From NCBI RefSeq assembly GCF_001553785.1, contig NZ_LOJP01000001.1:3682273-3746272 (forward strand): a stretch of DNA of 64,000 nucleotides, read 5' to 3'. The stretch is from Actinoplanes sp. TFC3. Lineage in GTDB: Bacteria; Actinomycetota; Actinomycetes; Mycobacteriales; Micromonosporaceae. Below the pieces are notes generated by a model that was given only the letters and a program-made list of their open reading frames with translations, was not told the origin of the DNA and did no database searches. Position numbers and translations under genes: made by a program. This document shows positions 13,888 to 28,729 of the stretch, piece by piece (within the stretch, counting starts at the first letter, position 1; each line of letters begins with the position of its first letter).

Positions 13888-13965
13888 GACTGTCCTCGGG
13901 TCGTATCGGTGATGACCGATGCTCACCCTACTCAGCGGATCGACCATGATCCAGCATCCCCCCAT

Positions 13966-13985
13966 GGCCTATTGGTTTGGTAGGG
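13966..13985 (+). promoter_or_regulatory. Shared 20-bp motif, copy 1 (EgtA-like / peptide importer divergent promoter)
   Basis: GGCCTATTGGTTTGGTAGGG. The right end TAGGGT (13981-13986) is a plausible -10 box for the EgtA-like gene, whose start lies 34 bases further on behind AGGAAAA. The same motif, in the same orientation relative to the served gene, precedes the tau and met operons (26065-26084 and 28609-28628). The reverse strand points at the importer operon, so one site may serve both directions. Confidence 0.55.
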
Positions 13986-14020
13986 TTTACCATCCGGCCG
14001 CATCGACGCGAGGAAAACCC

Positions 14021-15070
14021 ATGCTCACGCTGACCGAGAACAAGGCCCGTACGCTGCTCGAAGACGCCGCGTTCGCCCCCGCACGGCCCGGTTTCGTGGG
14101 CGTCGAGGTGGACCTGCTGCTGGCCAGCCCGGGGTTGCCCGCCCCGCTGGTGTCCACGCTGACCGAGGGTGTCTCACCGTTGCGCCATGGTTACCTGGCG
14201 GCGCACTCGGCGCGCGTGGCCGTGGTCAGCGGGCCGCCATCGCCGGGTCTGGACGTGGCGCTCATCCGGATGGGTGAAGATCTGCCGCTGCCCTTGCCGC
14301 TGCTCGCCGGTCACGACCTGGCAGTGCTGTCGGAGGCCGCCGACGAATCCCCCGCACTGGCCGGGACCGCCGGGGTGCGGGTCAGCCTGGAGACCGGGCT
14401 CGACGAGGACGGCCTGCTGGGGCTGCGGCGCCGGTGGACGCTGGCTCACGCGCTGGCCCCGGTGCTGGCGGCGGCGTTCGCGAACTCGCCGCTGCGGCGC
14501 GGGCGGCCGACCGGCTGGCGGTCGACGCGCCAGGCGCTGCGCGCGCTGAACCCGGTGCTGGGCGATCCGCGCTCGGACTGGGCGGACACCGTGCTCGACG
14601 CCCCGGTGGCCGGCACCGCGATCACCTTCCGCGCCTGGACCCGCGCCGCCGACCGGCCCACCTGCGAGGACCTGATGCGCCACACGGCCACGGTCCGCCC
14701 GCCGATCGCCGCGCGCGGGCATCTGGAGATCGACGTCGCCGACCGTCAGCCGGGGGCGGGCTGGCGGGTGCCGGCCGCGGTGATCACGGCGTTGCTCGAC
14801 GAACCCCGGGCGGCGGTGCAGGCGCTCAACGCCACGGCGGCGCTGGCCGGTCAGCATCGGCTGTGGGAGCGGGCGGCGCGCGAGGGGCTCAGCGACCCGG
14901 TGCTCGCTCGGGCGGCGCGGCTGTGTTTCGTGGCGGCGTACGAGGGCCTGACCCGGCAAGGGATCTCGCGTGAGGTGCGCGACGCGGTCGCGGCGTTCAC
15001 CGACCGCTACGTGATGCGCGGGCGCTGCCCGGCCGACGACGTGCTGGACCGCGCGGCCGCCCCGCATTGA
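14021..15070 (+). CDS. Divergent glutamate-cysteine ligase family 2 (EgtA-like) protein
   Basis: A 349-residue relative of EgtA, the gamma-glutamylcysteine ligase of ergothioneine biosynthesis. Similarity is clear in RWTLAHALAPVLAAAFANSPLRRGRPTGWRSTRQ, in DPRSDWADTVLDAPVAG and in the C-terminal helices ending MRGRCPADDV. It is shorter than typical EgtA (about 430 residues). Residues I expect to bind metal and glutamate look replaced: the first strand reads VGVEVDLLL, the acidic GGxxELSG-type element is VAVVSGPP, the QxN-type strand is RVSLETG, and LEIR is LEID. Catalysis is therefore doubtful. No egtB, egtC or egtD gene is in the window. ATG 14021 follows GAGGAAAA; a longer in-frame start at 13919 would cross the promoter motif. 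Confidence 0.65.
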   Translation: MLTLTENKARTLLEDAAFAPARPGFVGVEVDLLLASPGLPAPLVSTLTEGVSPLRHGYLAAHSARVAVVSGPPSPGLDVALIRMGEDLPLPLPLLAGHDLAVLSEAADESPALAGTAGVRVSLETGLDEDGLLGLRRRWTLAHALAPVLAAAFANSPLRRGRPTGWRSTRQALRALNPVLGDPRSDWADTVLDAPVAGTAITFRAWTRAADRPTCEDLMRHTATVRPPIAARGHLEIDVADRQPGAGWRVPAAVITALLDEPRAAVQALNATAALAGQHRLWERAAREGLSDPVLARAARLCFVAAYEGLTRQGISREVRDAVAAFTDRYVMRGRCPADDVLDRAAAPH

Positions 15071-15107
15071 AGGGTTGAGGGCGGCGAGGGCCGGGATGGC
15101 GCACGGA

Positions 15108-16652
15108 CTACTTCTTCGGCCGGAAGCTGGCGAAGATCAGCTTGAGGTCGCTCTGGCCGTCGGCCCAGTCGCTCTCGCGGGTCGACCAGTAGATGCCGTA
15201 GGCCTGCTTGTTCGAGGTGATCACCCCGCGGTTGTTGACGTGGCGCCGGGTGCCGCCGGAGACAAAGGAGTATTCCCAGTCGGCCGCCTTGACGAAGTAC
15301 TTGACCTCGGCGATCTTGATTTTCCGGTACGCCGGGAAGTCGCCGCTGCCGACCCGCGCGTCGGACTTGCCCTCCCAATCGGCCACCGGGTCCCACTGCG
15401 GCTTGGTTGTCTGGTCGATGCCGAGCACGTGGCCCTTGCCGTCGCGGAAGTAGATCATGCCCTTGGCGGTGGTGCCCTCCTCCTTGGTCCGCGTCCAGCC
15501 CTCGGGCACGTACAGGGCGAACCCGGTCGGATCCCGGTAGTCCCGCCAGCCCGACGGCAGCTTGGGCAGACTGCTGCTCGCCTCGGGCTTCGCGGTTGTC
15601 GGCTTGACCGTTGGCTGGGTCGTCGGCGGCGGCGTGGAGGAGGAGGAGGAGGAGGAGGGAGCCGGCGCCGGCGTCGTGGTGGTGGCAGTAGCTACGGGCG
15701 GTGGCACCGCCTTGTTCTGCGGTCTGCCGTCAGGCGACAGCGTGACGAAGGCAACCGCTCCCCCGGCGGCCAGCACCGCCGCGGTGGCTCCGGCCGCAAT
15801 CAAGGGGGTAAGCCGGGAGCGCGCCGGTGCGGGCGGGGTCACCACGGCCCGCAGCCGGCGCCGGGTCTCCGCCGCGTCGATCCGCTGGGCCGGGTCCTTG
15901 CGCAGCAACCCGTCCAGCACCGGCCTGAGCGCCCCGGCCTGCTGCGGCGGGGCCGGTTCGTCGGCGGCCAGCGCGGTCAGCGTGCCGATCGCCGTGCCCT
16001 TCTGGTACGGCGGCCGGCCCTCCACCGCCGCGTACAGGGTGGCGCCCAGCGACCACAGGTCGGAAGCCGGTTCGGCGGTGCCGTCGCGGGCCCGCTCGGG
16101 TGACATGTACTGCGGGGAGCCCAGCACCAGCTCCGAGCTGGTGGTGACCACGCTGTCACCCTCGATCGAGGCGATGCCGAAGTCGGTGAGCACGATGCGC
16201 CCGTCGGTGCCCAGCAGCACGTTCGCGGGCTTGACGTCGCGGTGACGCACCCCGGCGCGGTGCGCGGCCTCCAGCGCGTCGAGCACCTCCAGACCCAGCA
16301 GCGCAGCCCAGCGCGGTTCGAGGGGGCCGTCCTCGCTGATCACTTCCTGCAGCGAGCGCGACTCTACGTACTCCATGACGATCCACGCGTGGTCGTCGTT
16401 CTCCACCACGTCGAAGACCTGGACCACGTTGCGGTGGCTGAGCCGGGCCGCCGCCCGCGCCTCCTGCACCATGCGCCGGTGCACGGCGTCGCGCTCGGCG
16501 GCAACCAAGTCGTGGGGCAGCACGATCTCCTTGACCGCCACATCGCGTTGCAGCAGCTCGTCGCGCGCCTTCCAGACCCGGCCCATCCCGCCGGCGCCCA
16601 GCTCGTCCCCGAGCCGGTAACGCCCGGCTACCTCGATCGGCCCGGCACTCAT
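15108..16652 (-). CDS. Membrane Ser/Thr protein kinase with C-terminal extracellular domain
   Basis: A 514-residue Hanks-type kinase. The glycine loop is GAGGMG (residues 19-24), catalytic Lys41 in VAVKEI, HRD at 137-139 and DFG at 157-159, so it should be active. After the kinase domain (to about 270) comes a single membrane helix (LIAAGATAAVLAAGGAVAFVTL), then a Thr/Pro/Ser-rich linker containing seven consecutive serines encoded by a TCC repeat, and a compact C-terminal domain of about 150 residues (LPSGWRDYRDPTGFALYVPEGW ...) with no PASTA repeats. The outside domain could sense ligand or wall state. Convergent with the EgtA-like gene. Confidence 0.9.
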   Translation of the reverse strand: MSAGPIEVAGRYRLGDELGAGGMGRVWKARDELLQRDVAVKEIVLPHDLVAAERDAVHRRMVQEARAAARLSHRNVVQVFDVVENDDHAWIVMEYVESRSLQEVISEDGPLEPRWAALLGLEVLDALEAAHRAGVRHRDVKPANVLLGTDGRIVLTDFGIASIEGDSVVTTSSELVLGSPQYMSPERARDGTAEPASDLWSLGATLYAAVEGRPPYQKGTAIGTLTALAADEPAPPQQAGALRPVLDGLLRKDPAQRIDAAETRRRLRAVVTPPAPARSRLTPLIAAGATAAVLAAGGAVAFVTLSPDGRPQNKAVPPPVATATTTTPAPAPSSSSSSSTPPPTTQPTVKPTTAKPEASSSLPKLPSGWRDYRDPTGFALYVPEGWTRTKEEGTTAKGMIYFRDGKGHVLGIDQTTKPQWDPVADWEGKSDARVGSGDFPAYRKIKIAEVKYFVKAADWEYSFVSGGTRRHVNNRGVITSNKQAYGIYWSTRESDWADGQSDLKLIFASFRPKK

Positions 16653-16731
16653 GCCCGCCGATATACCCCAGCCACGCCGGTATGGAACTTGTCCCGGGAA
16701 TTGGCGCAGCGCCGGCCCTGCGACCCGCGGT

Positions 16732-16737
16732 TATGCT
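16732..16737 (+). promoter_or_regulatory. Leaderless -10 box (TATGCT) for the DUF6461 gene
   Basis: TATGCT is followed after seven bases by GTG 16745 with no ribosome site. It overlaps the in-frame ATG 16733, which argues against that ATG and supports GTG 16745 as the start. Confidence 0.4.
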
Positions 16738-16744
16738 TCTGCGC

Positions 16745-17674
16745 GTGGATGATCTGGACTACGCCCGCAAGCGCGTGGCCGAGTTCGGCCCGGCGTTCAC
16801 CCTGACCTGGGTGAAGGGGGTCGACGAGCAGGCGGCGCTGCGGCGCATGGGCGCCTACCCGGACACCCTCGAAGTGCGCGAGCCGGGCACGCACGCCGCT
16901 GCCTTGCCGCTGGGAGCCTGGACGCTGGTCATCGAGCCCGGTGGCCGTGCGGGCGGCGATCATGTCCTGCTGGAGGCGGTCTCGCGCGAGACCGAGGCGA
17001 TATCGCTGCTGCGAGACGACAAGGCAACCCCACGATTTACCTACGCCCGCAGCGGTCGCACCGAGGTCGCCTTCGACCCGGCGTACCCGTCACCCGAGCT
17101 GACCTGGGGTGCCGAGCCGAACCTGCTGGACCACCTGATGCACGCGCTGAACCTGCGGGAGCCGGACAGCGAGGACGACGATTCGTGGCGCGACGCCGAG
17201 GCCAAGGCGCTGGTGCTGGCTCAGCGGCTGACCAATGTGCGAGTGCCGGCGGGGGCTTTGGACGTACCGCGGATGTCTGCTGTTCTTGAGCCTTGGTTTG
17301 TTGGCGGGGTTCGGCCCGGGGATCTGCTTCGCCTGCGCACGCCGGTGGACGCCTCCCCCGCCGACAAGCGCCAGACCGCGGTCTCGCTTCTCCACCGCCT
17401 CGCCATCGAAATGGATATTTCCGATCTGGACCTGGATTCCGATGCAGGTGGATCGGAGCCAGGTGAGGCGGGCTCTGTCTTTGGGCCGGTGAATCCGGAG
17501 TCGGCGTTGGGGCGGCGGGCCCGGGAGTGGCTGGCGGACCCGCTGACCTACGGCGATTTCACCACGGCGTTGCGCGGCGTGCTCGATCCGGACCCCGATG
17601 TGGCGCTGCGGGCGGCGTTGCGCCCGTTGAATCCGGACGAGCGCGCCGCCGTACTGGCAAAGCTCACCGCATGA
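16745..17674 (+). CDS. DUF6461-like hypothetical protein
   Basis: About 309 residues from GTG 16745, soluble, no signal peptide or membrane segment. It starts MDDLDYARKRVAEFGPAFTLTWVKGVDEQAALRRMG and contains GAWTLVIEPGG, a pattern I associate with DUF6461 proteins of actinomycetes. A less conserved C-terminal half ends in two short helical repeats. Function unknown. In-frame starts at 16682 and 16733 exist; I prefer 16745 because of the leaderless promoter geometry. The 3' end overlaps the converging membrane-protein gene by 11 bases. Confidence 0.65.
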   Translation: MDDLDYARKRVAEFGPAFTLTWVKGVDEQAALRRMGAYPDTLEVREPGTHAAALPLGAWTLVIEPGGRAGGDHVLLEAVSRETEAISLLRDDKATPRFTYARSGRTEVAFDPAYPSPELTWGAEPNLLDHLMHALNLREPDSEDDDSWRDAEAKALVLAQRLTNVRVPAGALDVPRMSAVLEPWFVGGVRPGDLLRLRTPVDASPADKRQTAVSLLHRLAIEMDISDLDLDSDAGGSEPGEAGSVFGPVNPESALGRRAREWLADPLTYGDFTTALRGVLDPDPDVALRAALRPLNPDERAAVLAKLTA

Positions 17675-19472
17675 TCGCGCACTGAGCCGGCTGCCACACC
17701 AGCACGTCCTGCACCTGGGTGGGCAGCCCGTACAACTGATCGGCCAGCCCGCGCAGCGCCGTTGATTTCAGATCAGCGCGCATCACCACGGCCGACACGT
17801 CCCACCGGCGCACATCGGCACACGCGGCGCGGCGCTGCTCAGCGGTCACGGCCGGGACCTGCTGGGTACGTATCGCCTCGACGGCCATCGTGGTGGTGGC
17901 CGACACGGTCGCCGGGCCCATCTGACCGGCACCGCCGGGTCCGGGACCCAGGAAGTAGCCCTCGGGCACGGCGAACTCGTGCTGCGCCCAGGCACTCCAG
18001 CTCAGCGTGTCGCGGCCCACCCAGTTGCTCGGCAGCGGCAACGGCAGCATGGCCCGGCCCGGCGGCACATAGCTGTGCCACGCCCCGGACGTGATGAACG
18101 TGGGCGGCCGTTGCTCGGGCATCGCCGGCACCGGGGTGGGAATGAGCGGGATCAGCGCTGCCGCGATCAGGATCCGGCGCACCGGGCGGTCGCGGCCCCG
18201 CCGGTCCCAGCCGATCGCGAGCAGCACAGCGAACGCGCCGGCCACCGCGTACGTCAGCCGGCTCGGCATCATCATGTCGAGCACCGGCACCGCTTCCTCG
18301 AGGAACGCCAGCGGGCCCGGCACCCCGGTGAGCTGGCCGGCGAAGCGGATCTCCTGGCCCAGCGACAGCACGGCGAACACGAGGGTCACCACGAGAGCGA
18401 TCCGGGTCACCATCTGCCGCCAGGTCAGCACGCCCAGCAGGATCACGGCCAGCACGAGCGGCCACCCGAACCAGCTGTTCTGCTCGGTCCGCCCGACAAC
18501 CGCCTCGCTCGCCGCATCCCCGGCCAGGCTGTCGCGCGGGAACGTCAGCCACGCCAGCGGGTCCTCACCCCAGGTGTTGAACATCGGCACACCCCGGAAA
18601 GAGCCAGGACCGGCGAACTGAAACCACAAGGGGTACGCACACAGCACCCCCGCCACCCCAGCCGTAACCGCCAACGCCCGCAGGAAATCCGCTCGCCGCT
18701 TCGGCAGGCGCACCAGCACGATCACCGCACAAGCCAGGGCAGTGACCAGCAACATCTCCTCGTTGATGAACAACTGCCAGGTCACCAGCAGCCCCAGAAC
18801 CAGCCCGTCACGCATCCAGCGACCGGCACACCCGAGCCGGGCAGCGCCGGCCACGATCAGCGGGAGCAGGAAGTTCGACACGAAGTTGGGCTGACCGTTC
18901 GCGTGGTGCACCACCCCGGGCGCGAACCCGGCGAACGCTCCCGCCACCGCGGCGGCCATTGGCGAGCGAACCACATAGCGGCGCAGCACCCAGTAGGTTG
19001 TCGCCGCCGTCGCTGCCATCGCCCCGGCCAGCCACACCAGGTACATCACCCGCGGCCCGGCCAGCATGGTCAACGGCGCCAGCGGGATCGTGACGCCCAG
19101 CACCGAGGTGTTGGCCATCATGTTCACGCCGTCGGGCACGTTCTGCTGCGCCGAGAACAGCGGGTTGCCGAGGTGCCGCACGGTGTACGCGCCGTGCGAG
19201 AGCAGCCACTCGAACCAGGTGTGATCGGTGGGCAGGTGGCTGGAGACGCGGCCGTTGGGATCCCCGAGGTAGCGGCCGATCACCACGAGCGCCAGGGTGA
19301 CATAGCCGGCCAGCACCGCCAGGTCGGTACGTACCAGACGCCACCGCAGCATCCGGCCGCCCGCGAGCACTGCCGCCTGCACCTTCTCCTCGATCACGCC
19401 GACCGGTAAGGGCGGCGTCGCAGCCACGTACGCCCGCAATTCGCCCACCAGAGGGCTGTGCTTGTTGATCAC
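17664..19472 (-). CDS. Polytopic GT-C-like membrane protein, copy 1
   Basis: A 602-residue protein with about ten membrane helices, of the type usually annotated as integral membrane protein or GT-C glycosyltransferase-like. Its first outside loop carries the conserved block DHTWFEWLLSHGAYTVRHLGNPLFSA followed by NVPDGVNMMANTSVLGV, and a C-terminal soluble domain begins near residue 480. GT-C enzymes transfer sugars from polyprenyl-phosphate donors; the substrate here is unknown. It is a tandem paralogue of the gene at 19521-21431. Long DNA stretches are nearly identical between the two (for example 18555-18645 with 20403-20493, and 19080-19205 with 20939-21064). Confidence 0.75.
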   Translation of the reverse strand: MINKHSPLVGELRAYVAATPPLPVGVIEEKVQAAVLAGGRMLRWRLVRTDLAVLAGYVTLALVVIGRYLGDPNGRVSSHLPTDHTWFEWLLSHGAYTVRHLGNPLFSAQQNVPDGVNMMANTSVLGVTIPLAPLTMLAGPRVMYLVWLAGAMAATAATTYWVLRRYVVRSPMAAAVAGAFAGFAPGVVHHANGQPNFVSNFLLPLIVAGAARLGCAGRWMRDGLVLGLLVTWQLFINEEMLLVTALACAVIVLVRLPKRRADFLRALAVTAGVAGVLCAYPLWFQFAGPGSFRGVPMFNTWGEDPLAWLTFPRDSLAGDAASEAVVGRTEQNSWFGWPLVLAVILLGVLTWRQMVTRIALVVTLVFAVLSLGQEIRFAGQLTGVPGPLAFLEEAVPVLDMMMPSRLTYAVAGAFAVLLAIGWDRRGRDRPVRRILIAAALIPLIPTPVPAMPEQRPPTFITSGAWHSYVPPGRAMLPLPLPSNWVGRDTLSWSAWAQHEFAVPEGYFLGPGPGGAGQMGPATVSATTTMAVEAIRTQQVPAVTAEQRRAACADVRRWDVSAVVMRADLKSTALRGLADQLYGLPTQVQDVLVWQPAQCAIMR

Positions 19473-19520
19473 ACCCCCATAACGCGAGCCGGGCTCGAAA
19501 AGGTTGCTTCGTGAGCAGGA

Positions 19521-21431
19521 TCAACAGTGCGCCGGTTGCCACACGTCAACGTCGCCGACCCGGGTGGGCGGGCCGTACAACTGCTCGGCGAGCTTCGAGA
19601 GGGCAGGCGAGCCGAGGTCGGCGCGCATCACCACGACGGAGGTGTGCCAGCGGCTCAGGTCGGCGCAGACGGCCTGCTCATCGGCCGGGCTCACGACCGG
19701 CACCTTGCCGTCGCTGAGCGCCGCGACGGTCAACCGGCTGGTCACTGACACCGTCGCCGGGCCCATCTGCCCCTCACCCTGCGGACCTGGACCCAGGAAG
19801 TACCCCTCGGGCACCGCGAACTCGTGGCGTTCTGACGCACTCCACGACAGCGTGTCCCGGCCGAGCCAGTTGCTGGGCACGGGCAGCGGCAGCATGGTGC
19901 CACCCGGCGGCACGTAGCTGCGCCAGGCTCCCGAGGTGATGAACACCGGGGGCTGGCGCTGCGCCTTGGCCGGCACGGGGGTGGGGATGAGCGGGATCAG
20001 CGCCGCCGCGATCACCGTGCGGCGCAGCGTGCGGCGGCGTCCGTACCGGTCCCAGCCGACGGCCAGCAGCACGGTGAACGCGCCCGCGACCGCTGTGGTC
20101 AGCCGGCTCGGCATCATCATGTCGAGCACCGGCACCGCCTCCTCCAGGAAGGCCAGCGGGCCGGGCACGCCGGTGAGGTGACCGGCGAAGCGCAGGCGGG
20201 GACCCAGGGCCAGCAGGCCGAAGACGAGGGCCACGGTCACGGCCACCCGGGTCACGGCCAGCCGCCAGGTCAGCACCGCGAGCAGCACCGCGACCAGCGT
20301 GAGGGGCCAGCCGAACCAGCTGTTCTGCTCGATGAGCCCCACCACCGTCTCGCTGGAGGCGTCCCCGGCCAGGCTGTCGCGCGGGAACGTCAGATAGGTC
20401 AGCGGATCCTCACCCCAGGTGTTGAACATCGGCACACCCCGGAAAGAGCCAGGACCGGCGAACTGAAACCACAAGGGGTACGCACACAGCACCGCGGCCC
20501 CCGCAGCCGTCACTGCCAGCCCTCGCAGGAAGTCCGCTCGCCGCTTGGGCAGGCGCACCAGCACGATCACCGCACACGCCAAGGCCGTGACCAGCAACAT
20601 CTCCTCGTTGAGGAACAACTGCCAGGTCACCAGCAACGCGAGAAGAATTCCGTCACGAGCCCATCTGCCGTCGCGTCCCAGCCGGACCGCACGCGCCACG
20701 ATCAGCGGGAGCAGGAAGTTCGACACGAAGTTGGGCTGACCGTTCGCGTGGTGCACCACCCCGGGCGCGAACCCGGCGAACGCCCCGGCCACCGCCGCCG
20801 CCGTCCGCGAGCGAACCACATAGCGGCGCAGCACCCAGCACGTGGTCGCCGACGTCGCCACCATCGCCCCGGCCAGCCAGATCAAGTAGGTGATCCTCGG
20901 CCCGGCCAGCATGGTCAACGGCGCCAGCGGGATCGTGACGCCCAGCACCGAGGTGTTGGCCATCATGTTCACGCCGTCGGGCACGTTCTGCCGGGCCGAG
21001 AACAGCGGGTTGCCGAGGTGCCGCACGGTGTACGCGCCGTGCGAGAGCAGCCACTCGAACCAGGTGTGATCGGCGGGCACCTGGGTGGTGATCCGGCCCT
21101 GTGGGTCGGCGAGGAACCGGCCCACCACGATCACGGCCAGGCTCACGTACGCGGCCGCCACCGCCAGCTCGGCGCGTCCCGGCCGCCACCGGCGCCGAGC
21201 GGGCCCGGCCTCCCCGTCCGCCAGGGGCCCACTCTCTGCTGCCGGGCCGGGCGCATCGTTCTCCGCCCGGCCGGCAGCGTCCCGTTCCGCCGGGCCCAGC
21301 GCGTCCTGTTCCGCTCGGACGGGCGCGGCGCCGGTCCGGCTGCCGGGGGCAGAGCCGGCTCTGGCGCCGGTCGCCGGCTCGGACTCGACGCCTCTGACCG
21401 CCACGCTGCGGTATTCCCGCATTTCACCCAC
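19521..21431 (-). CDS. Polytopic GT-C-like membrane protein, copy 2
   Basis: A 636-residue paralogue of the downstream gene, with the same helices and the same DHTWFEWLLSHGAYTVRHLGNPLF block. It differs mainly by an N-terminal cytoplasmic tail of about 75 residues rich in Ala, Gly, Pro and acidic residues, with a repeated GP-AE-D pattern (DALGPAERDAAGRAENDAPGPAAE). The start is GTG 21431; ATG 21422, three codons later, is equally possible. A 48-base gap separates it from copy 1, so they probably share a transcript. Both the shared helices and the soluble end are kept, so both copies may be functional. Confidence 0.75.
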   Translation of the reverse strand: MGEMREYRSVAVRGVESEPATGARAGSAPGSRTGAAPVRAEQDALGPAERDAAGRAENDAPGPAAESGPLADGEAGPARRRWRPGRAELAVAAAYVSLAVIVVGRFLADPQGRITTQVPADHTWFEWLLSHGAYTVRHLGNPLFSARQNVPDGVNMMANTSVLGVTIPLAPLTMLAGPRITYLIWLAGAMVATSATTCWVLRRYVVRSRTAAAVAGAFAGFAPGVVHHANGQPNFVSNFLLPLIVARAVRLGRDGRWARDGILLALLVTWQLFLNEEMLLVTALACAVIVLVRLPKRRADFLRGLAVTAAGAAVLCAYPLWFQFAGPGSFRGVPMFNTWGEDPLTYLTFPRDSLAGDASSETVVGLIEQNSWFGWPLTLVAVLLAVLTWRLAVTRVAVTVALVFGLLALGPRLRFAGHLTGVPGPLAFLEEAVPVLDMMMPSRLTTAVAGAFTVLLAVGWDRYGRRRTLRRTVIAAALIPLIPTPVPAKAQRQPPVFITSGAWRSYVPPGGTMLPLPVPSNWLGRDTLSWSASERHEFAVPEGYFLGPGPQGEGQMGPATVSVTSRLTVAALSDGKVPVVSPADEQAVCADLSRWHTSVVVMRADLGSPALSKLAEQLYGPPTRVGDVDVWQPAHC

Positions 21432-21494
21432 GGACGGGTTATACAGGTGTAAACCCGCGAAATACCATCCTTACCGGGTGTACGGGTGGGTGGT

Positions 21495-22412
21495 TCACGC
21501 TTTACGGTGGTTAACCGCGCTGGGCCGCTCCTCGGCACGCCGCTCTCGTTCTTCCCTGCGGTACTCGCGGATCGAGTAGGCGATGGCGCCCGCCCAGGCC
21601 AGATAGATCACCGCGTAGACGCCGTAACGCACGCCGCCGGACGCGTCGATCCAGTCGCTCCTGAGCAGCGTGCGGACGTTGGTCAGGATGATCACGCCGC
21701 CCACCGCCGAGCCGAGCACCCGCGGCGGGATGTGGCGCACCAGCCACGCCGCGACCGGGGCCGCGATCACCCCACCGGCCAGCAGGGCGAGCACCCAGGT
21801 GACGTCGATGTCCTCGCCCCCGAGGCCCACGAAGAAACCGATGCTGGCCGCGACGGCGACGATGAACTCGCTGGTGTCGATGGATCCGATCGTCTTGCGC
21901 GGTTCGAGGCGCCCGCTGGCCAGGATGGCCGGGGTGCCGACCGGTCCCCAGCCACCGCCGCCGGTGGCGTCGACGAACCCGGCCACCAGCCCGAGTGGGG
22001 CCAGGAACCGTTTGCGCAGCGGCTTGTCCAGGGCGGCCTGCGGCAGACCCTGCCAGGTGAAGCGGATGAAGACGTACAGGCCCAGGATCAGCAGGATCAC
22101 CGACATCAGCGGGGCTGCGGTCCCGGTGTCCAGCCCGGACAAGAAGGTGGCACCGGCGAACGCGCCCACCGCGCCGGGCAGGCCGATCTTGAGCACCACC
22201 CGCCAGTCCACGTTGCCGAACCGCCAGTGCGACAAACCTGACATGAGCGTGGTGCCGATCTCCGCCAGGTGCACAGTGGCCGACGCCGCGGCCGGGTTGG
22301 TGCCGATCGCCAGCAGCAGAGTCGTGGAGGTGACGCCGTACGCCATCCCCAGACTGCCGTCGACGAGTTGGGCGCCCAACCCGACCAGGGCGAGGAGCAG
22401 CAACCTACGCAT
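21495..22412 (-). CDS. TauE/SafE family sulfite (anion) exporter
   Basis: A 305-residue membrane protein of the TauE/SafE family with about eight helices. Typical features are the N-terminal GLGAQLVDGSLGMAYGVTSTTLLLAIG with its small-residue turn, and the internal repeat LGLVAGFVDATGGGGWGPVGTPAI. It would export sulfite or a related sulfonate anion. It overlaps the TauD gene by eight bases and is the last gene of the tau operon, which makes sense because TauD releases sulfite from taurine. The cytoplasmic C-terminus is highly charged. Confidence 0.9.
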   Translation of the reverse strand: MRRLLLLALVGLGAQLVDGSLGMAYGVTSTTLLLAIGTNPAAASATVHLAEIGTTLMSGLSHWRFGNVDWRVVLKIGLPGAVGAFAGATFLSGLDTGTAAPLMSVILLILGLYVFIRFTWQGLPQAALDKPLRKRFLAPLGLVAGFVDATGGGGWGPVGTPAILASGRLEPRKTIGSIDTSEFIVAVAASIGFFVGLGGEDIDVTWVLALLAGGVIAAPVAAWLVRHIPPRVLGSAVGGVIILTNVRTLLRSDWIDASGGVRYGVYAVIYLAWAGAIAYSIREYRREERERRAEERPSAVNHRKA

Positions 22413-23268
22413 CAGCCGGACCCGCGGGGAGGTCCCCGCGCAGGGTGATCCGGTGCATCACCCGCCGGTCGGTCCCGTAGTCACGGTTGGCGTAGTGCAG
22501 GGTGCTGCGGTTGTCCCACATGGCCACGTCACCGAGGCGCCAGCGGTGCCGCACGATGTGCTCGGGCTTGGTGAGGTGGGCGTAGAGCAGGTCCAGGATC
22601 GAGCGGCTCTCGAACTCCGAGACGCCGACGATGTGCGAGGTGAAGCCCGGGTTGACGAAGATGCCCTTGCGCCCGGTCTCGGGGTGCACGCGCACCACCG
22701 GGTGCTCGATCGGGTCGAGCTTGGTGACGATCTCGCCGTCCCACTCGTTGCCCTGCCCGCCGCGGCGCTGCGCCAGGTAGTAGCCGAACTCGCGGGTACC
22801 GTCGTGCACCGCGGTCAGGCCGTCGATGAGCTTCTGAACGCGCGGGTGCAGCGACTCGTACGCCAGCTGAGCGTCGGCCCAGTTGGTGTCGCCGCCGGTG
22901 GGCGGCAGGACCACCGGGCGCAGGATCGAGCCCAGTGGGGGGCGGCGCATGAAGGTGACGTCGGTGTGCCACACGTCGGCGAAGCCATTGTCGGTGCTGT
23001 CCAGCGCGTACACCTCGGGGTGGGCCGCGTCGACGCCGCCGACCACCGGGTGCGAGGCGGTCAGCTCGCCGATGCGCCGGCCGAGGCCGACGTGGTCGTC
23101 GTCGGTCAGCGGCTGGTCGCGGAAGAACAACACCTTGCGCTCGACGAGGGCAGCGCGCACGGCGGCGACCTCCTCGTCGCTCGCGGTGGCCAGGTCGATG
23201 CCGTGCACGATCGACCCGAAGTGGGGGCCGAGCGGCTCGAGCTTGAGGTCGACGAGAGCTGCGGTCAC
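22405..23268 (-). CDS. tauD: TauD/TfdA family 2-oxoglutarate-dependent dioxygenase
   Basis: A 287-residue Fe(II)/2-oxoglutarate dioxygenase that oxidises an alkyl sulfonate such as taurine, releasing sulfite and an aldehyde. The iron-binding facial triad is visible: His and Asp in VWHTDVTF, and the distal His in VMHRITLRGD with the 2-oxoglutarate-binding Arg nearby. NRSTLHYANRDYG is also a family hallmark. ATG 23268 overlaps the ATPase stop as ATGA. Its position in the importer operon supports a sulfonate substrate; other members of the family act on sulfate esters or herbicides, so the exact substrate is inferred. Confidence 0.9.
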   Translation of the reverse strand: MTAALVDLKLEPLGPHFGSIVHGIDLATASDEEVAAVRAALVERKVLFFRDQPLTDDDHVGLGRRIGELTASHPVVGGVDAAHPEVYALDSTDNGFADVWHTDVTFMRRPPLGSILRPVVLPPTGGDTNWADAQLAYESLHPRVQKLIDGLTAVHDGTREFGYYLAQRRGGQGNEWDGEIVTKLDPIEHPVVRVHPETGRKGIFVNPGFTSHIVGVSEFESRSILDLLYAHLTKPEHIVRHRWRLGDVAMWDNRSTLHYANRDYGTDRRVMHRITLRGDLPAGPADA

Positions 23269-24056
23269 GAGGTGACTCCTTCCGGAACATATGGCGCCGA
23301 TGGTGCTGATGCCGCCGCACGGACGGCGTGACCGATCTGCGAGCGCAGAGCGGCGTACTCCGGCAGGCCGCGCAGTTCGTCCGGGGCGAGCCCGGTGCGC
23401 GGCAGGCCGACCTTGAGGTCGAGGGCGATCCGGCCCGGCCGGGCGGTCAGCACGACCACCCGGCTGCCGAGGAAGACCGCCTCGTCAACGCTGTGGGTGA
23501 CGAACACGCAGGTACGGCCGGACTCCGCGCTCACCCGGCGCAGGTCCTCCTGCAGCCGCTCGCGGGTCAGCGCGTCGAGCGCGGCGAACGGCTCGTCCAG
23601 CAGCAGCAACGGGTTCTCCACGGCCAGGGCCCGCGCGATGGCCACGCGCTGCTGCTGACCGCCGGAGATCTGCCAGGTACGCCGGTGCGCGACGTCGTGC
23701 AGGCCGACTCCGGCCAGCAGCTCGTCGACCCGGTCGGTGGGCAGCCCCGCGTACTTGAGCGCCAGCTCGACGTTGCCGCCCACGGTCTTCCACGGGAACA
23801 GCCGCGGCTGCTGGAACACCAGCCCGGCGCCCCGGCCCGGCACGGGTGCCTTGCCGACGGTGAGCACCGAGCCCTCGGTGGGGCTCTCGAACCCGGCAAT
23901 CAGGCGCAGCAGCGTGCTCTTGCCACAGCCGGACGCGCCGACCAGCACCAGGAACTCCCCGGTGGGCACGCTCAGGTCGACCGGGCCGACCGCGGTGACG
24001 TCGCCGTACGAGTGCCGGACGCCCTCGAGGGTGATCGCCGCGTCAGCCGAGGACAC
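23265..24056 (-). CDS. tauB: Taurine/sulfonate ABC importer ATPase
   Basis: A 263-residue ATPase of the nitrate/sulfonate/taurine class. It has Walker A GASGCGKSTLLRLIAGF, Q-loop FQQPRLFPWKTV, signature ISGGQQQRVAIARAL, Walker B LLLLDEPFAALD and the H-loop VTHSVDEA. It drives uptake with the TauC-like permease and the TauA-like binding protein of the same operon. The gene overlaps the binding-protein gene by 14 bases and the dioxygenase gene by four. Confidence 0.9.
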   Translation of the reverse strand: MSSADAAITLEGVRHSYGDVTAVGPVDLSVPTGEFLVLVGASGCGKSTLLRLIAGFESPTEGSVLTVGKAPVPGRGAGLVFQQPRLFPWKTVGGNVELALKYAGLPTDRVDELLAGVGLHDVAHRRTWQISGGQQQRVAIARALAVENPLLLLDEPFAALDALTRERLQEDLRRVSAESGRTCVFVTHSVDEAVFLGSRVVVLTARPGRIALDLKVGLPRTGLAPDELRGLPEYAALRSQIGHAVRAAASAPSAPYVPEGVTS

Positions 24057-25071
24057 CGGGCAGGCCCTTCACATAGACGCCCTTCTGCACGGTTGCGAGG
24101 TCCGGGACGGCGTCGATCTTCTGCTGGTCCTTGAGGAACTGGGCGGCGCTGAGCAGGTTGTCGGCGATCTTGCCGACCTTGGTCTCGGTGCCCAGCCACT
24201 CGTCGGTGGACAGGTCGGAGGGCTTGAGGAACACGCCCTGGTCGAGCTGGTGCTGAGCCTCCTCGGGGCTCAGGTTGAGTTCCTGGCCCACGGCCTTGGC
24301 CGCGCTGGGCTTGTCGTTCGCGATGACGTCGAGGGCCTGCGCCTCGACCTTGCGCCAGGCGTCGACCGCGTCGGGGTGGGCCTCGGCGAACGGGGTGGAC
24401 ACCACACCGAGGTCCAGCGTCGGCTTGCCCGCCGTGGCCAGCTCGCGGCTGCTGATCAGGACCTTGCCGTCCTTCTTGATGGTGTCGAGCACCGGCAGCC
24501 AGGTGTAGGCGGCGTCGAGGTCACCGCGCGCCCACGCGGCCTGGATGTCCTGTGGTTCCAGGTCGACGATGGTCAGGTCCTTCTCGGCCAGCCCGGCCTG
24601 CTTGAGCGCGGCCAGCAGGCTGTAGTGCGACGTCGACGCGAACGAGGTGGCGACCTTCTTGCCCTTGAGGCCGGCCACGTCGGTGACCCCGGAGCCGTTG
24701 CGGGCCACCAGCGCCTCGTTGTCGCCGGCCACGTCGAGCACGAACGCCACCTGGTAGGGGATGTTCAGCGGCGCGGACAGCCCGCGGGCGACCGGGCTGG
24801 AGCCGATGGCCGCGAAGTCGACGCTCTTGGCTACGAACGCGGTGTTGATACTCGCGCCGGAGTCGAACTTGGTCCAGGTGATCTGGTAGTCGGGTAGCGC
24901 CTTCTCGAGCAGTCCCTGGTTCTTGACGATCAGGTCACCGCTCGGGAACGCCTGGTACGCGATCCGGATCGTCTTCTTGTCCGGGTTGGCGCCGCCGCCG
25001 GCGGCACCGTTGCCGCACGCGCCAACCGCGAGCAGGAGCGCGGCGCCAAGGACGGACAGGGTTCTCTTCAT
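24043..25071 (-). CDS. tauA: Taurine/sulfonate-binding lipoprotein
   Basis: A 342-residue binding protein with lipoprotein signal MKRTLSVLGAALLLAVGAC (lipidated Cys19). The mature part follows the aliphatic-sulfonate/taurine-binding pattern: IRIAYQAFPSGDLIVKNQGLLEKAL, FDSGASINTAFVAKSVDFAAIGSSPVARG and WARGDLDAAYTWLPVLDTI. It captures the sulfonate for the TauBC transporter. Second gene of the operon, 14 bases after the permease gene. Taurine versus other sulfonates cannot be decided from sequence alone, but the downstream TauD favours taurine-like substrates. Confidence 0.9.
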   Translation of the reverse strand: MKRTLSVLGAALLLAVGACGNGAAGGGANPDKKTIRIAYQAFPSGDLIVKNQGLLEKALPDYQITWTKFDSGASINTAFVAKSVDFAAIGSSPVARGLSAPLNIPYQVAFVLDVAGDNEALVARNGSGVTDVAGLKGKKVATSFASTSHYSLLAALKQAGLAEKDLTIVDLEPQDIQAAWARGDLDAAYTWLPVLDTIKKDGKVLISSRELATAGKPTLDLGVVSTPFAEAHPDAVDAWRKVEAQALDVIANDKPSAAKAVGQELNLSPEEAQHQLDQGVFLKPSDLSTDEWLGTETKVGKIADNLLSAAQFLKDQQKIDAVPDLATVQKGVYVKGLPGVLG

Positions 25072-25085
25072 GTGCGGTTTCCCTT

Positions 25086-25943
25086 TTAACTACGGCCGCG
25101 CCACGGGATCAGCCGAGTTTCGGCCGTCCGCAGCAGGGCGTCGATGAGCAGGCCGGAGAGGCCGATGGCGAACAGTCCGAGCACGACCACGTCGGTCTGG
25201 GAGTAGCGCTGGGCGTCGCGGATGAGCCCGCCGATGCCGGGTACGCCGTTGATGGTCTCGGCGGCGACCACCGAGGAGTAGGCGACGCCGACCGCGAGGC
25301 GGATGCCGGTAAAGATCTCCGGCAGCGCGTTGGGCAGCACCACGTCGCGGATGGCCTGCCCGCGGCTGGCGCCCAGCGCCCGCGCCGCTTCGACCAGGCC
25401 GGTGGGGGCGGAGTAGACGGCCGCGGCGGTGGCCACGTCGACCGGGGGCAGCGCAGCGATCGACAGCAGCCACAGCTTGGGCGTCTCGTCGATGCCGAAC
25501 CAGATGATGAACAGGCTGAAGTAGGCCAGCGGAGGCAGTGCCCGCACGAAGGTCACCACCGGCTCGGCCACCACCCGGATCCAGCTGACCGAGCCCATGA
25601 CCACACCGATCAGCAGGCCGGCGGCGATGCCGACGACCGAGCCGATGAGGATGCGGCGCAGGCTGACCCCGAGGTGCTCGATGAGCAGGTGGCCGCTGTA
25701 GCCGCGCACGCCGTCGTGGGTGGTCGAGGTGACGATCAGCTGGTGCCACACCGCGCCGGGCGCAGGGATGAAGGCGGGGTTCTGCATGATCCGCGCGGTG
25801 ATCTCCCACAGCACGTACAGCACGACCAGCGCGACGACCCGCAGCAGCACACGCCGCCGCCGGTTGCCGGAGTTTCCCCGGGTGACGCGCGGGCCACCGA
25901 CGACGGGTTCCGCCGCGGGTCGCGCGGGCGCGGAAATGCTCAC
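25086..25943 (-). CDS. tauC: Taurine/sulfonate ABC importer permease
   Basis: A 285-residue permease with about six membrane helices after an Arg-rich, Pro/Ala N-terminus. The cytoplasmic coupling loop is EAARALGASRGQAIRDVVLPNALPEIFTG, as in SsuC/TauC proteins. First gene of the tau operon (tauC-A-B-D-E), an order in which the permease leads rather than the binding protein. Transcription likely starts about 115 bases upstream from the promoter that carries the shared motif at 26065-26084. Confidence 0.9.
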   Translation of the reverse strand: MSISAPARPAAEPVVGGPRVTRGNSGNRRRRVLLRVVALVVLYVLWEITARIMQNPAFIPAPGAVWHQLIVTSTTHDGVRGYSGHLLIEHLGVSLRRILIGSVVGIAAGLLIGVVMGSVSWIRVVAEPVVTFVRALPPLAYFSLFIIWFGIDETPKLWLLSIAALPPVDVATAAAVYSAPTGLVEAARALGASRGQAIRDVVLPNALPEIFTGIRLAVGVAYSSVVAAETINGVPGIGGLIRDAQRYSQTDVVVLGLFAIGLSGLLIDALLRTAETRLIPWRGRS

Positions 25944-26064
25944 AGATCACCTCAGGGTCGAAGTCGGGGGCATCGATGCGATGCCGCCCCCATTTCCTAC
26001 CCTGCCGATCGACTTTTCGGCAATCCCCCGTGATCCTCGTCCCGCCTGGTGGACGCGATTTTAA

Positions 26065-26084
26065 TCCTACCGAGTCCATCGGTT
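26065..26084 (-). promoter_or_regulatory. Shared 20-bp motif, copy 2 (tau operon promoter)
   Basis: On the minus strand AACCGATGGACTCGGTAGGA, continuing as TAGGAT, a good -10 hexamer for the tau operon. It contains the imperfect dyad ACCGA-gtcca-TCGGT. It matches copies 1 and 3 at the positions CC-AT-G and GTAGG. Its distance to the tauC start is about 120 bases. Confidence 0.55.
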
Positions 26085-26099
26085 AAAAAGTATTACAGC

Positions 26100-26127
26100 G
26101 GCCCGCCCCCGGACCGGGGAGCGGGCC
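26100..26127 (-). terminator. Terminator hairpin after metQ
   Basis: A GC-rich dyad, GGCCCGC (26100-26106) and GCGGGCC (26121-26127), with inner pairing between the CCCGG and CGGGG runs. It begins 14 bases after the metQ stop on the minus strand and separates the met operon from the tau promoter. Confidence 0.6.
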
Positions 26128-26140
26128 TGGCCGGCGAGGA

Positions 26141-26953
26141 TCAGAAAGCGGCGAGCACCGAGCCCTGATACTTGTCCTCGATGAACTTCTTCACCTCGGG
26201 CGAGTGCAGCAGCGTCTCCAGCTTGGTGATCCGCGGGTCGTTCTCCTCGCCGGTGCGCACCACCACGAGGTTGGCGTACGGGTTGTCCTTGCCGTCCTCG
26301 AGCGCCAGCGCGTCCTTGGCCGGGCTGAGCCCGGTCTGGATGGCGTAGTTGCCGTTGACGATCGACGCGGCGGTGTCCTCCAGGCTGCGCGGTAGCTGGG
26401 CGGCCTCGAGCGCGGAGAACTTCAGGTTCTTCGGGTTGCCGGTGATGTCCTTCTCGGTGGCCTTGACCCCGACGCCGTCCTTGAGCGTGATGAGCCCGTT
26501 CTTGGCCAGCAGCGCCAGCGCCCGGCCCGAGTTCGACGGGTCGTTGGGGATGCCGATGGTGCCGCCGGCCGGGATCTCGGCGATCGACTTGACCGTCTTG
26601 GAGTACAACCCGAGCGGCTCGATGTGCACCGGCTTGAGCGGGGTGAACTTGTAGCCCTTGGCCGCTACCTCCTCGTCGAGGTACGGGATGTGCTGGAAGT
26701 AGTTGGCGTCGAGCTGCTTCTCCTGAAGGGCCACATTGGGCTGCACGTAGTCGTTGAACTCGACGATGTCCAGCTTGAGCCCTTCCTTGGCGGCGAGGTT
26801 GTCCTTGACGTACGTCAGGATCTCACCATGCGGGACGGGGCTGACACCGACCTTGAGGGTGCCGGAGGCCGACGAGGACTCGTCGCTGGAGCCACACCCG
26901 GCGGCGGTGAGGCCGAGGACCAGCACGGCGGCGAGCAGTGAGCGGCGGAGCAT
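26141..26953 (-). CDS. metQ: Methionine-binding lipoprotein MetQ
   Basis: A 270-residue NlpA/MetQ-family binding protein with lipoprotein signal MLRRSLLAAVLVLGLTAAGC (Cys20). Family blocks include LKVGVSPVPHGEIL, LDIVEFNDYVQPNVALQEKQLDANYFQHIPYLDE, and IPNDPSNSGRALALLAKNGLI. It delivers methionine (possibly also other sulfur amino acids) to MetNI. Last gene of metN-I-Q, 13 bases after metI, and followed by a terminator hairpin. Confidence 0.93.
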   Translation of the reverse strand: MLRRSLLAAVLVLGLTAAGCGSSDESSSASGTLKVGVSPVPHGEILTYVKDNLAAKEGLKLDIVEFNDYVQPNVALQEKQLDANYFQHIPYLDEEVAAKGYKFTPLKPVHIEPLGLYSKTVKSIAEIPAGGTIGIPNDPSNSGRALALLAKNGLITLKDGVGVKATEKDITGNPKNLKFSALEAAQLPRSLEDTAASIVNGNYAIQTGLSPAKDALALEDGKDNPYANLVVVRTGEENDPRITKLETLLHSPEVKKFIEDKYQGSVLAAF

Positions 26954-26966
26954 GGCAAATGCCTTT

Positions 26967-27623
26967 CTATCGGTGGGACAGGCGCCGGACGACCACGTCG
27001 CCCAGCATCTGGATGAGTTGCACGAACACCACGAGCACCACCACGGTGGCGATCATGACCTCGGTTTCGAAGCGCTGGTAGCCGTAGCGGATGGCCAGAT
27101 CACCGAGCCCGCCGCCGCCGACCACGCCGGCCATCGCCGAGTAGCCGACCAGCGCGATCACCGTGATGGTGAGCCCGGCGACCAGCGCGGGGCGGGCCTC
27201 ACGCAGCAGCACCTTGCCGACGATCTGCCGGCGCGAGGACCCCATGGCGATCGCGGCGCTGACCACGTCGGCGGGTACCTCGCGCAGCGCGGTCTCGACG
27301 ATGCGGGCGTAGAACGGGATCGCGCCGATGGTCAGCGGCACGATTGCGGCGGTGGTGCCGATGGTGGTGCCGACCACGGCCCGGGTGAACGGGATGACCG
27401 CGACCAGCAGAATGATGAACGGCAGCGAGCGGCCGACGTTGACCACCAGGCCGAGCAGGGCGTTGAGCGGGGGCGCGGCCAGCAGCCCGCCACGCGCGGT
27501 GAGCACGAGCAGCACCCCGAGCAGCAGCCCGCCGACCGCGGTCAGCACGGCGGACAATCCGACCATCCACGCGGTTTCCTGGAAGCCTTCCCAGAGCAGG
27601 TCGCTGATGTCGGACCAGGTCAT
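26967..27623 (-). CDS. metI: Methionine ABC importer permease MetI
   Basis: A 218-residue permease with five predicted membrane helices, the normal size for MetI. The coupling loop is REVPADVVSAAIAMGSSRRQIVGKVLLREARPALVAG, and the C-terminal GYSAMAGVVGGGGLGDLAIRYGYQRFE is diagnostic for the family. ATG 27623 overlaps the metN stop as ATGA, so translation is coupled. Confidence 0.93.
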   Translation of the reverse strand: MTWSDISDLLWEGFQETAWMVGLSAVLTAVGGLLLGVLLVLTARGGLLAAPPLNALLGLVVNVGRSLPFIILLVAVIPFTRAVVGTTIGTTAAIVPLTIGAIPFYARIVETALREVPADVVSAAIAMGSSRRQIVGKVLLREARPALVAGLTITVIALVGYSAMAGVVGGGGLGDLAIRYGYQRFETEVMIATVVVLVVFVQLIQMLGDVVVRRLSHR

Positions 27624-28597
27624 CGGGTCACCTCCGTGACGAGTGCGCCGCGCCGGCGCAGGAATCCGGCAGCGTCCTCGCCGCGCCCGGCGACGGCCAG
27701 CCGCAGCCGCCCGGCCCGGGTGGCCGCCAGGGTTTCCACCCCGCCGCCGAGCAGCCGGATGTCGACGCCCAGCTCGCGGACCAGCTCGGACAGCAGTGGC
27801 TCGTCGGCCGCCGGCCCGCTCACGGTCACGTCGAACGCCGTCTCGCCCTGCCGGGTCTGCACGGCGGGCAGCGGGAACAGTCCGGCGGCGAGCTCGGAGC
27901 CCTCGGTGAGCAGCAGCTCGCTGACCGGGCCGGACTCGGTGAACCGGCCCTCGCGCATCACGGCGGCCGCGTGGCAGACCCGTTTCACCACGTCCATCTC
28001 GTGGGTGATCAGCAGGATGGTCAGCCCGAGCCGGCGGTTGAGGTCGAGCAGCAGGTCCAGGATGGAGCGGGTGGTGTCCGGGTCGAGCGCCGAGGTGGCC
28101 TCGTCGGACAGCAGCACGGTCGGTTCGGCGGCCAGCGCCCGGGCAATGCCGACGCGCTGCTTCTGCCCGCCGGACAGCTGCGCCGGGTAGGCCCCGGCGC
28201 GGTCGGACAACCCGACAAGCTCGAGCAGCTCGGCGACGCGCGCGGACCGCTGGGTCCGCGGCACCCCGGCCACTTCCAGCGGGAACGCGACGTTGCCGGC
28301 CACCGTGCGCGAGGACAGCAGGGCGAAATGCTGGTGGATCATGCCGACCCGGCGCCGGGCGGCCCGCAGCTTGCGGTCGCTGAGCGCGGTCAGCTCCACC
28401 CCATCGACCAGCACCGTGCCCGCGTCGGGGCGTTCCAGCAGGTTGACGCAGCGCAGCAGGGTGCTCTTGCCGGCGCCGCTGCGCCCGAGCACACCGAAGA
28501 TCTCCCCAGGGCGCACCTCGAGGTCCACGTCGTTGACGGCGACGACCTCGCGCCGGCGGGCATGGTAGGTCTTACGCAGACCGCTGACCGTGATCAC
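27620..28597 (-). CDS. metN: Methionine ABC importer ATPase MetN with NIL domain
   Basis: A 325-residue ATPase. Walker A is GRSGAGKSTLLRCVNLLERP, signature LSGGQKQRVGIARAL, Walker B VLLSDEATSALD. The C-terminal 80 residues form the NIL regulatory domain (VSGPAADEPLLSELVRELGVDIRLLGGGVE), where cytoplasmic methionine causes feedback inhibition of the transporter. I place the start at GTG 28597, preceded by GGAG; an in-frame TTG at 28618 lies inside the shared regulatory motif and is unlikely. First gene of metNIQ. Confidence 0.92.
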   Translation of the reverse strand: MITVSGLRKTYHARRREVVAVNDVDLEVRPGEIFGVLGRSGAGKSTLLRCVNLLERPDAGTVLVDGVELTALSDRKLRAARRRVGMIHQHFALLSSRTVAGNVAFPLEVAGVPRTQRSARVAELLELVGLSDRAGAYPAQLSGGQKQRVGIARALAAEPTVLLSDEATSALDPDTTRSILDLLLDLNRRLGLTILLITHEMDVVKRVCHAAAVMREGRFTESGPVSELLLTEGSELAAGLFPLPAVQTRQGETAFDVTVSGPAADEPLLSELVRELGVDIRLLGGGVETLAATRAGRLRLAVAGRGEDAAGFLRRRGALVTEVTR

Positions 28598-28608
28598 AAC
28601 GCCCAATC

Positions 28609-28628
28609 TCCTACTCAACCTATAGGTT
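28609..28628 (-). promoter_or_regulatory. Shared 20-bp motif, copy 3 (met operon promoter)
   Basis: On the minus strand AACCTATAGGTTGAGTAGGA. It includes the perfect dyad AACCTATAGGTT and the TAGGAG end that could be a -10 box. The motif ends only 11 bases from the metN GTG, so a bound regulator would block initiation. Same orientation relative to the gene as copies 1 and 2. Confidence 0.55.
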
Positions 28629-28729
28629 TTGGATATGTGACCCTAGCGCGACGACGCCGGGCAGCGCGCGCCGGTGTAACGACCATCACCGATCAGCACG
28701 CCTGACCATGGGCGCCGGAAGGGGATTGC

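Follow-up and report, generated by a model that had tools for sequence, protein, structure and literature searches.

A palindromic operator-like site upstream of organosulfur genes in Actinoplanes, and a candidate Rrf2 repressor

The stretch of DNA analysed here (the window) comprises 64,000 nucleotides (nt) of the genome of Actinoplanes sp. TFC3, positions 3,682,273 to 3,746,272 of contig NZ_LOJP01000001.1. It holds an egtA-like gene, a peptide-type importer that faces it, a taurine/sulfonate (tau) operon and a methionine-type (met) operon, with short, mutually similar sites upstream. An earlier reading of the letters alone, here called the original prediction, had reported one 20-bp motif at three promoters (egtA-like, tau and metNIQ) and proposed a single sulfur regulon. 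The three 20-mers are correct in sequence, coordinates and strands. To these we add a second tau site and a candidate regulator encoded elsewhere in the genome (G000). The features are as follows, with E-values from the site model R1 described below; ABC stands for ATP-binding cassette.

13968..13984, + strand: predicted operator core CCTAT-N7-GTAGG, 36 nt 5′ of the egtA-like ATG (site 1 of the original prediction; E 0.019)
26066..26082, − strand: predicted distal tau operator core CCGAT-N7-GTAGG (site 2 of the original prediction; E 0.089)
25996..26012, − strand: predicted proximal tau operator core TCGAT-N7-GTAGG (overlooked earlier; E 0.15)
28610..28626, − strand: predicted metN operator core CCTAT-N7-GTAGG, core end 12 nt from the likely GTG start (site 3 of the original prediction; E 0.066)
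13927..13943, − strand: weak possible operator TCGAT-N7-GTAGG, tentative, facing the peptide importer gene (3 mismatches; no model match)
14021..15070, + strand: EgtA-like protein, a relative of the GCS2 family glutamate-cysteine ligases (PF04107, 76.6 bits)
12193..13887, − strand: oligopeptide-type substrate-binding lipoprotein, first gene of the importer (PF00496, 252.5 bits)
8734..12192, − strand: remainder of the peptide-type importer, permeases and ATPase domains (by eye; gene limits approximate)
25086..25943, − strand: taurine/sulfonate-type ABC permease, first gene of the tau operon (by eye; orthologues in congeners)
24043..25071, − strand: taurine/sulfonate-type ABC substrate-binding protein (TIGR01729, 219.5 bits, under the cut-off of 304.25)
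23265..24056, − strand: taurine/sulfonate-type ABC ATPase (by eye)
22405..23268, − strand: TauD-like dioxygenase (PF02668, 226.3 bits; NF007104 taurine dioxygenase, 284.5 bits, under the cut-off of 313)
21495..22412, − strand: TauE/SafE-like permease (PF01925, 147.9 bits)
27620..28597, − strand: MetN-like ATPase (TIGR02314, 337.5 bits, under the cut-off of 499.7)
26967..27623, − strand: MetI-like permease (by eye; orthologues in congeners)
26141..26953, − strand: MetQ-like lipoprotein (NF008285, 221.3 bits, and TIGR00363, 206.4 bits, both under the cut-off)
G000:C12:225978-226379, elsewhere in the genome: candidate regulator (L077), a cysteine-free Rrf2 protein of 134 amino acids whose gene leads an ssuA-type sulfonate ABC operon

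Adjoining the tau operon are two tandem genes for large, mutually similar membrane proteins (17664-19472 and 19521-21431, by eye).

The shared motif is a palindrome, ATTCCTAT-N7-ATAGGAAT, and the sites in the window are copies of it. That the sites share a motif thus stands; the accompanying claim that they have the same orientation has little meaning, because the motif (CCTAT-N7-ATAGG) is palindromic. Full palindromes in congeners led us to abandon a view of the motif as directional and promoter-like. Judged by sequence comparison, the resemblance of the three sites is not due to chance, and the evidence for this lies in position and conservation rather than in raw counts within a single genome. 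The pattern common to the three sites, CCKATNGRNTNRGTAGGR, has three matches in the 7.75 Mb genome, all within the window, and its reversal has none; this count is no independent test, because the pattern was derived from the same three sites. Looser patterns come close to chance in the window: CCTATNGGNTNRGTAGG with up to 3 mismatches occurs 6 times against 2.98 expected (11 of 100 shuffles are equally high), and CCTAN9TAGG with 1 mismatch occurs 6 times against 4.48 expected.

We therefore relied on comparison among relatives. For each of four queries (the egtA-like gene, the tau permease, metI and the candidate Rrf2 regulator), 30 loci were assembled from TFC3 itself and 29 congeners, as best matches among 60 genomes searched. 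The palindrome lies upstream of the egtA-like gene in 27 of the 29 congeners, of the tau operon in 28, of metN in 21 and of the Rrf2 gene in all 29. With TFC3 included and at most 2 mismatches in the 10 half-site positions, the counts are 28/30, 29/30, 22/30 and 30/30, respectively. Exact CCTAT-N7-ATAGG matches number 14 (egtA-like), 0 (tau), 2 (metN/metI) and 4 (Rrf2) per 30 loci, and at the other spacers from 3 to 12 none was found for any of the four gene sets. When 2 mismatches are allowed, these other spacers give 0-8 matches per 30 loci, except for tau at spacer 5, with 15. Reversed, the pattern matches 13 of the 30 egtA-like loci and two each of the Rrf2, tau and metN loci when spacer 7 and 2 mismatches are used; at spacer 12 it reaches 10/30 for Rrf2. 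With 1 mismatch it gives at most 2 matches, and with 0 mismatches none anywhere. Half-sites are 79-93% identical in pairwise comparisons between genomes, figures that are inflated, as the sites were chosen by those very letters; flanks 11-50 nt away are 29-36% identical, that is, random-looking, save for the left side of the Rrf2 sites (55%). The pattern CCKATNGRNTNRGTAGGR gives 11 matches against 4 for its reversal in 35 congeners, and 1 against 0 in 24 genomes of other families. Two of the congener matches lie directly 5′ of egtA-like genes, and others precede DUF1684, monooxygenase-like and nitroreductase-like genes (by eye).

It could be argued that the shared letters are nothing but a -10 element (TAGGRT) with chance matches upstream of it, and no regulon at all. 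The TAGGR end does lie near a plausible -10, and the loose patterns in the window are near chance level, as described above. Against this, the two half-sites, the left one being CCTAT, are equally conserved at a fixed 7-nt spacer, the distance from operator to gene start varies widely, and a reversed control model finds next to nothing (see below). We regard this explanation as highly improbable. In several congener egtA-like promoters, AATGCTATGCT, itself a plausible -10, follows directly 3′ of the operator.

The fourth site, at 25996-26012, corresponds to the tau site seen in congeners: it has the same GGTAGGAAATGGGGGCGGCAT context as L082 and L083, and AAATGGGGGCGGCAT, which follows it, is also found in these two loci. 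Two tau sites occur in some congeners as well, for example L086, L095, L098, L100 and L108. As regards the tentative operator facing the importer, L020 and L023 have a second site on the importer side of the egtA-like gene.

As an independent test, we built a sequence-only model, R1, from 60 of 90 distinct sites (105 sites in 116 congener loci, TFC3 excluded), and a control model, R2, from the same training sequences reversed. The R1 consensus is nATTCCTATCGGnnnGATAGGAATnn. On the window (E<=10, filters off), R1 returns six rows at four places, 13967-13988 (E 0.019), 28609-28629 (0.066), 26062-26083 (0.089) and 25992-26015 (0.15), the two additional rows being the opposite strand of two of these places (E 1.5 and 5); R2 returns none under the same settings. 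In the 60 genomes of the genus (TFC3 plus 59 more), the R1 matches at E<=3 amount to 397 rows spread over 59 genomes, a figure that includes training sites and may count one palindrome twice, once per strand; R2 gives 4 rows in 4 genomes. The original prediction had proposed a genome scan and named random scatter of matches as the outcome that would speak against it; R1 matches instead far exceed those of the reversed control. On the whole TFC3 genome at E<=10, R1 finds five rows at four places, with a best E of 1.86; of the window sites, site 1 alone is among them.

Which genes follow these sites? We surveyed 93 loci, 90 among the roughly 150 R1 rows listed and three from TFC3; L189 and L249 are the same site, as are L182 and L250. 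A site is present in 92 of the 93 (the scan finds none in L202), and in 76 of the 92 a predicted gene start falls within -30 to 250 nt. For the other 16 no predicted start is in range, and in 12 of them a predicted frame covers the site; the gene finder is crude, however, as L170 and L219, both among the 16, are egtA-like and importer sites. Each cluster took its name from a single representative, identified by Pfam in ten cases and by eye in the others. Among the matches listed, the largest clusters are cysteine dioxygenase (at least 12 genomes, TFC3 included), egtA-like (at least 12) and NADPH-dependent FMN reductase (at least 12), the first and last of these being the largest outside the training set. 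Peptide-type binding proteins of the SBP_bac_5 family follow R1 matches at no fewer than 6 loci in 5 genomes. The ten Pfam assignments are CDO_I, FMN_red, SBP_bac_5, Bac_luciferase (three times, one just under the cut-off at 27.1 versus 27.9), Flavin_Reduct, Oxidored_molyb, DUF1684 and Acyl-CoA_dh_2; by eye, SsuA-like, MetQ-like, polar amino acid permease and sarcosine-oxidase-like genes also follow sites. No sulfate-assimilation genes were seen among the clusters, most singletons having been left unannotated. The sulfur theme of the original prediction is borne out: the commonest genes behind the R1 matches examined are sulfur-related, though single matches precede other genes.

TFC3 itself has a full palindrome at C1:463301-463317 (L350), 5′ of a cysteine dioxygenase-like gene that is followed by a rhodanese-like gene. 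Further sites precede a DUF1684 gene, a hydrolase gene accompanied by one for a luciferase-type monooxygenase, a gene for a polar amino acid ABC permease and one for an FAD/NAD(P) protein (names by eye or likeness). Genes of DUF1684 type lie repeatedly 3′ of the operator (L351, L242, L012 and L013, with Pfam run for L242 only), a hint that this family may have a role in sulfur supply. Two operator-like sites, at G000:C1:3858760 and 3859785 (L157 and L355), lie 1 kb apart around a sulfotransferase-like gene; the L355 site falls within a predicted frame.

The original prediction had also placed the EgtA-like protein and the peptide importer in one regulon. Orthologues of the importer's binding protein (81-82% identity) occur at L193, L210 and L219, in genomes where the egtA-like gene is elsewhere, and these sites were picked up by R1 independently. 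In all three, a site lies 9 nt 5′ of the start: CCTATCGGTAAGATAGG, CCTATCGGTGAGGTAGG and CCTATCGATCCGATAGG. Importer orthologues unlinked from egtA-like genes thus carry an operator of their own, which argues that the importer belongs to the predicted regulon in its own right, at least in the genomes of L193, L210 and L219. As to the EgtA-like protein, it fails the EgtA equivalog (TIGR03444, 163.9 bits versus a cut-off of 370.8), and a second homologue, with 42% identity, is encoded at G000:C12:364383-365234. In view of the low score and the second homologue, the EgtA-like protein of the window may have another substrate.

For the regulator, the original prediction had offered the Rrf2 family as one candidate among others. 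It is this family that the comparison supports, and a gene can now be named: G000:C12:225978-226379. Its product scores 109.9 bits with PF02082 (cut-off 30) and 111.3 with TIGR00738 (cut-off 73.3), and the gene heads an operon that continues with an SsuA-family binding protein (217.8 bits, cut-off 163.5), an ATPase and a permease. The core of the site starts 48-70 nt 5′ of the Rrf2 start in 29 of the 30 loci and 26 nt 5′ of it in the remaining one. Among 46 named Actinoplanes-type loci (a set overlapping in kind with those 30), 45 have a site no more than 300 nt upstream of the Rrf2 gene. Cysteine is absent from the protein in 30/30 orthologues and in 44 of the 46 named loci, the other two having one cysteine each. 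Beyond the genus, 10 of 14 genomes from other genera of the family have a close orthologue (66-73% identity), and all 10, which belong to two genera, have a site. In eight of these, the Rrf2 gene comes last in its operon and the site is some 2.8 kb away on the upstream side, as would be expected of the operon start; in the other two, it lies just 5′ of Rrf2 (2 mismatches) and 26 nt 5′ of Rrf2, respectively. The L077 type and its relatives from the same family form one clade with a support of 100/100; the sequences from other phyla are long branches, which makes the outer placement of the clade unsure.

It is also conceivable that the palindrome is the operator of some other regulator, either the Rrf2 paralogue at C1:5058886 or a protein outside the family, and that the ssu-linked Rrf2 gene is merely a target. 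The paralogue type is spread through the order and occurs in all 60 genomes searched (44-48% identity to the query), and in other bacteria sulfur genes are under regulators of LysR, ROK or TetR type. However, among 15 paralogue loci (G000:C1:5058886-5059275, L154, and the congener loci L140-L153), no promoter has the site within 400 nt. Instead, these promoters share a different element, AATTCCC followed about 8 nt on by TGGGG or CGGGG, the spacing varying by a base, and the paralogue (L076) was rejected as the regulator. Moreover, the ssu-type Rrf2 gene keeps its site across genera despite the changed gene order, and TFC3 has only two full-length Rrf2 genes, along with two partial matches. 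Overall, we consider regulation by such another protein unlikely.

Taken together, the comparative genomics supports one regulator for the three promoters, and we think it likely that the sites are operators of a single autoregulated Rrf2 repressor, encoded at G000:C12:225978-226379, that would act on organosulfur genes under sulfur sufficiency. The palindrome, its conservation, its place 5′ of the target genes and of the Rrf2 gene, and its excess over the reversed control are observed; that the Rrf2 protein binds it, represses and responds to sulfur status is what we infer from them. In the mechanism we propose, an Rrf2 dimer would bind ATTCCTAT-N7-ATAGGAAT over or beside the core promoter. 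When sulfur is sufficient, it would keep the organosulfur genes off, predicted to be those for sulfonate/taurine import and cleavage, methionine-type import, peptide import, cysteine dioxygenase, flavin reductase, monooxygenases and the EgtA-like ligase; when sulfur runs short, the repressor would release its operators. The closeness of operator to gene start (12 nt from the core end at metN) fits repression by a dimer.

CymR of Bacillus and Staphylococcus offers the nearest comparison. It has the same Rrf2 fold as judged by sequence (S. aureus 3t8r, E 4.3e-13; B. subtilis 2y75, E 8.9e-11), and is described as controlling ssu genes and the uptake and synthesis of cysteine, with the signal relayed through CysK and O-acetylserine (PMC3828012). 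In Actinoplanes, predicted operators stand 5′ of ssu, tau and met genes as well as of those for cysteine dioxygenase and flavin reductase, positions from which a CymR-like control of cysteine and organosulfur supply would be conceivable. Nevertheless, the candidate fails the CymR equivalog NF047409 (66.3 versus a cut-off of 195 bits), sits in its own clade with relatives from the same family, and has predicted targets that include sulfonate and peptide import and cysteine dioxygenase. It is also cysteine-free, whereas S. aureus CymR is reported to have a regulatory Cys25 (PMC12822559). No CymR operator sequence for comparison was found in the literature searched, including the available part of PMC2869319. 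The best reading of these comparisons is a repressor that resembles CymR in outline and yet is probably a different Rrf2 protein.

The iron-sulfur (Fe-S) regulators IscR, RirA and NsrR belong to the same superfamily, by the TIGR00738 score given above. IscR has three cluster cysteines, which the candidate lacks in every one of its 30 orthologues, and the candidate scores 73 bits with the IscR model against a cut-off of 207.55. No Fe-S assembly genes are among the named target clusters. A switch by Fe-S cluster or thiol is unlikely, because the candidate has no cysteines. By analogy with CymR, the signal would most likely be a small ligand or a CysK-type partner.

The regulator might also be real and yet act as an activator, or respond to redox or metal stress and have the sulfur genes as one arm of its regulon. 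Rrf2 proteins elsewhere are described as sensing nitric oxide, iron limitation, cysteine availability or Fe-S status (PMC5015018), a range that would accommodate such a role, and some targets (a redoxin-like gene, DUF1684) are not obviously sulfur genes. A cluster or thiol is made less likely by the absence of cysteine, the commonest targets among the matches listed are sulfur-related, and the operators lie near gene starts, where a repressor would be expected to block the promoter. We find this alternative rather unlikely, and retain a sulfur-responsive repressor as the preferred interpretation.

Control of sulfur genes in actinobacteria has been described for other regulator types. McbR, CysR and SsuR of Corynebacterium glutamicum, which control sulfur and sulfonate genes, are of TetR and ROK types rather than Rrf2. 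When Rhodococcus grows with dibenzothiophene in place of sulfate, TauAB, TauD, SsuABD, MetNQ, EgtA, SfnG, SoxA and a CymR/Rrf2 protein are reported to rise (PMC8557817), a joint increase that lends indirect support to co-regulation. The Rrf2 protein in question, IGTS8_peg394 of Rhodococcus qingshengii, rises with the tau, ssu, met and EgtA proteins; in the part of that report available, it has no neighbouring sulfur genes and no operator or regulon is described (PMC8557817). A literature search, which covered few subscription journals, found no publication on an actinobacterial Rrf2 sulfur operator.

Several observations weigh against the proposed repressor and its regulon. The Rrf2 site of TFC3 itself is imperfect (CCCAT-N7-ATAGA, 2 mismatches), and neither it nor window sites 2 and 3 are recovered by R1 from the whole genome at E<=10. 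The simple pattern CCTAYN7RTAGG is not enriched in TFC3, with 8 places versus 7 for its reversal, and 8 of the 30 metN upstream regions have no site at up to 2 mismatches. Kinship among the genomes means that congener sites are not independent events, and the eight shared sites of the other genera are nearly identical. In those genera, complete stretches of 6.5-10 kb were scanned with as many as 2 mismatches allowed, which gave a few further, chance-like matches. In G007 and G021, the two congeners that lack a close Rrf2 orthologue, R1 finds 0 and 2 rows, compared with a mean of 6.8; this is weak support for a link between regulator and sites, because five genomes with the orthologue also have 1-2. 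Single matches lie 5′ of carbonic-anhydrase-, agmatinase-, carboxypeptidase- and response-regulator-like genes (by eye). Finally, in the Rhodococcus growth some sulfate genes are also up and two rhodanese-type proteins are down (PMC8557817).

A broader proposal follows, towards which we lean with some reserve: that this Rrf2 protein, known so far only from Micromonosporaceae, not descended from CymR and free of cysteine, may be a global switch for organosulfur scavenging that directly senses a ligand or partner and unites sulfonate use, peptide import, cysteine oxidation and the EgtA-like ligase in one regulon. According to a 2024 review, what is known of sulfur metabolism in streptomycetes is generally fragmentary (PMC11356490). 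The control of organic sulfur is poorly described in antibiotic-producing actinomycetes. The present analysis predicts three things jointly, a regulator with its gene, an exact operator and a list of targets, and the question therefore becomes experimentally testable. For the EgtA-like GCS2 protein, the peptide importer and DUF1684, the predicted regulon gives a first physiological hint, namely that they may act in sulfur scavenging.

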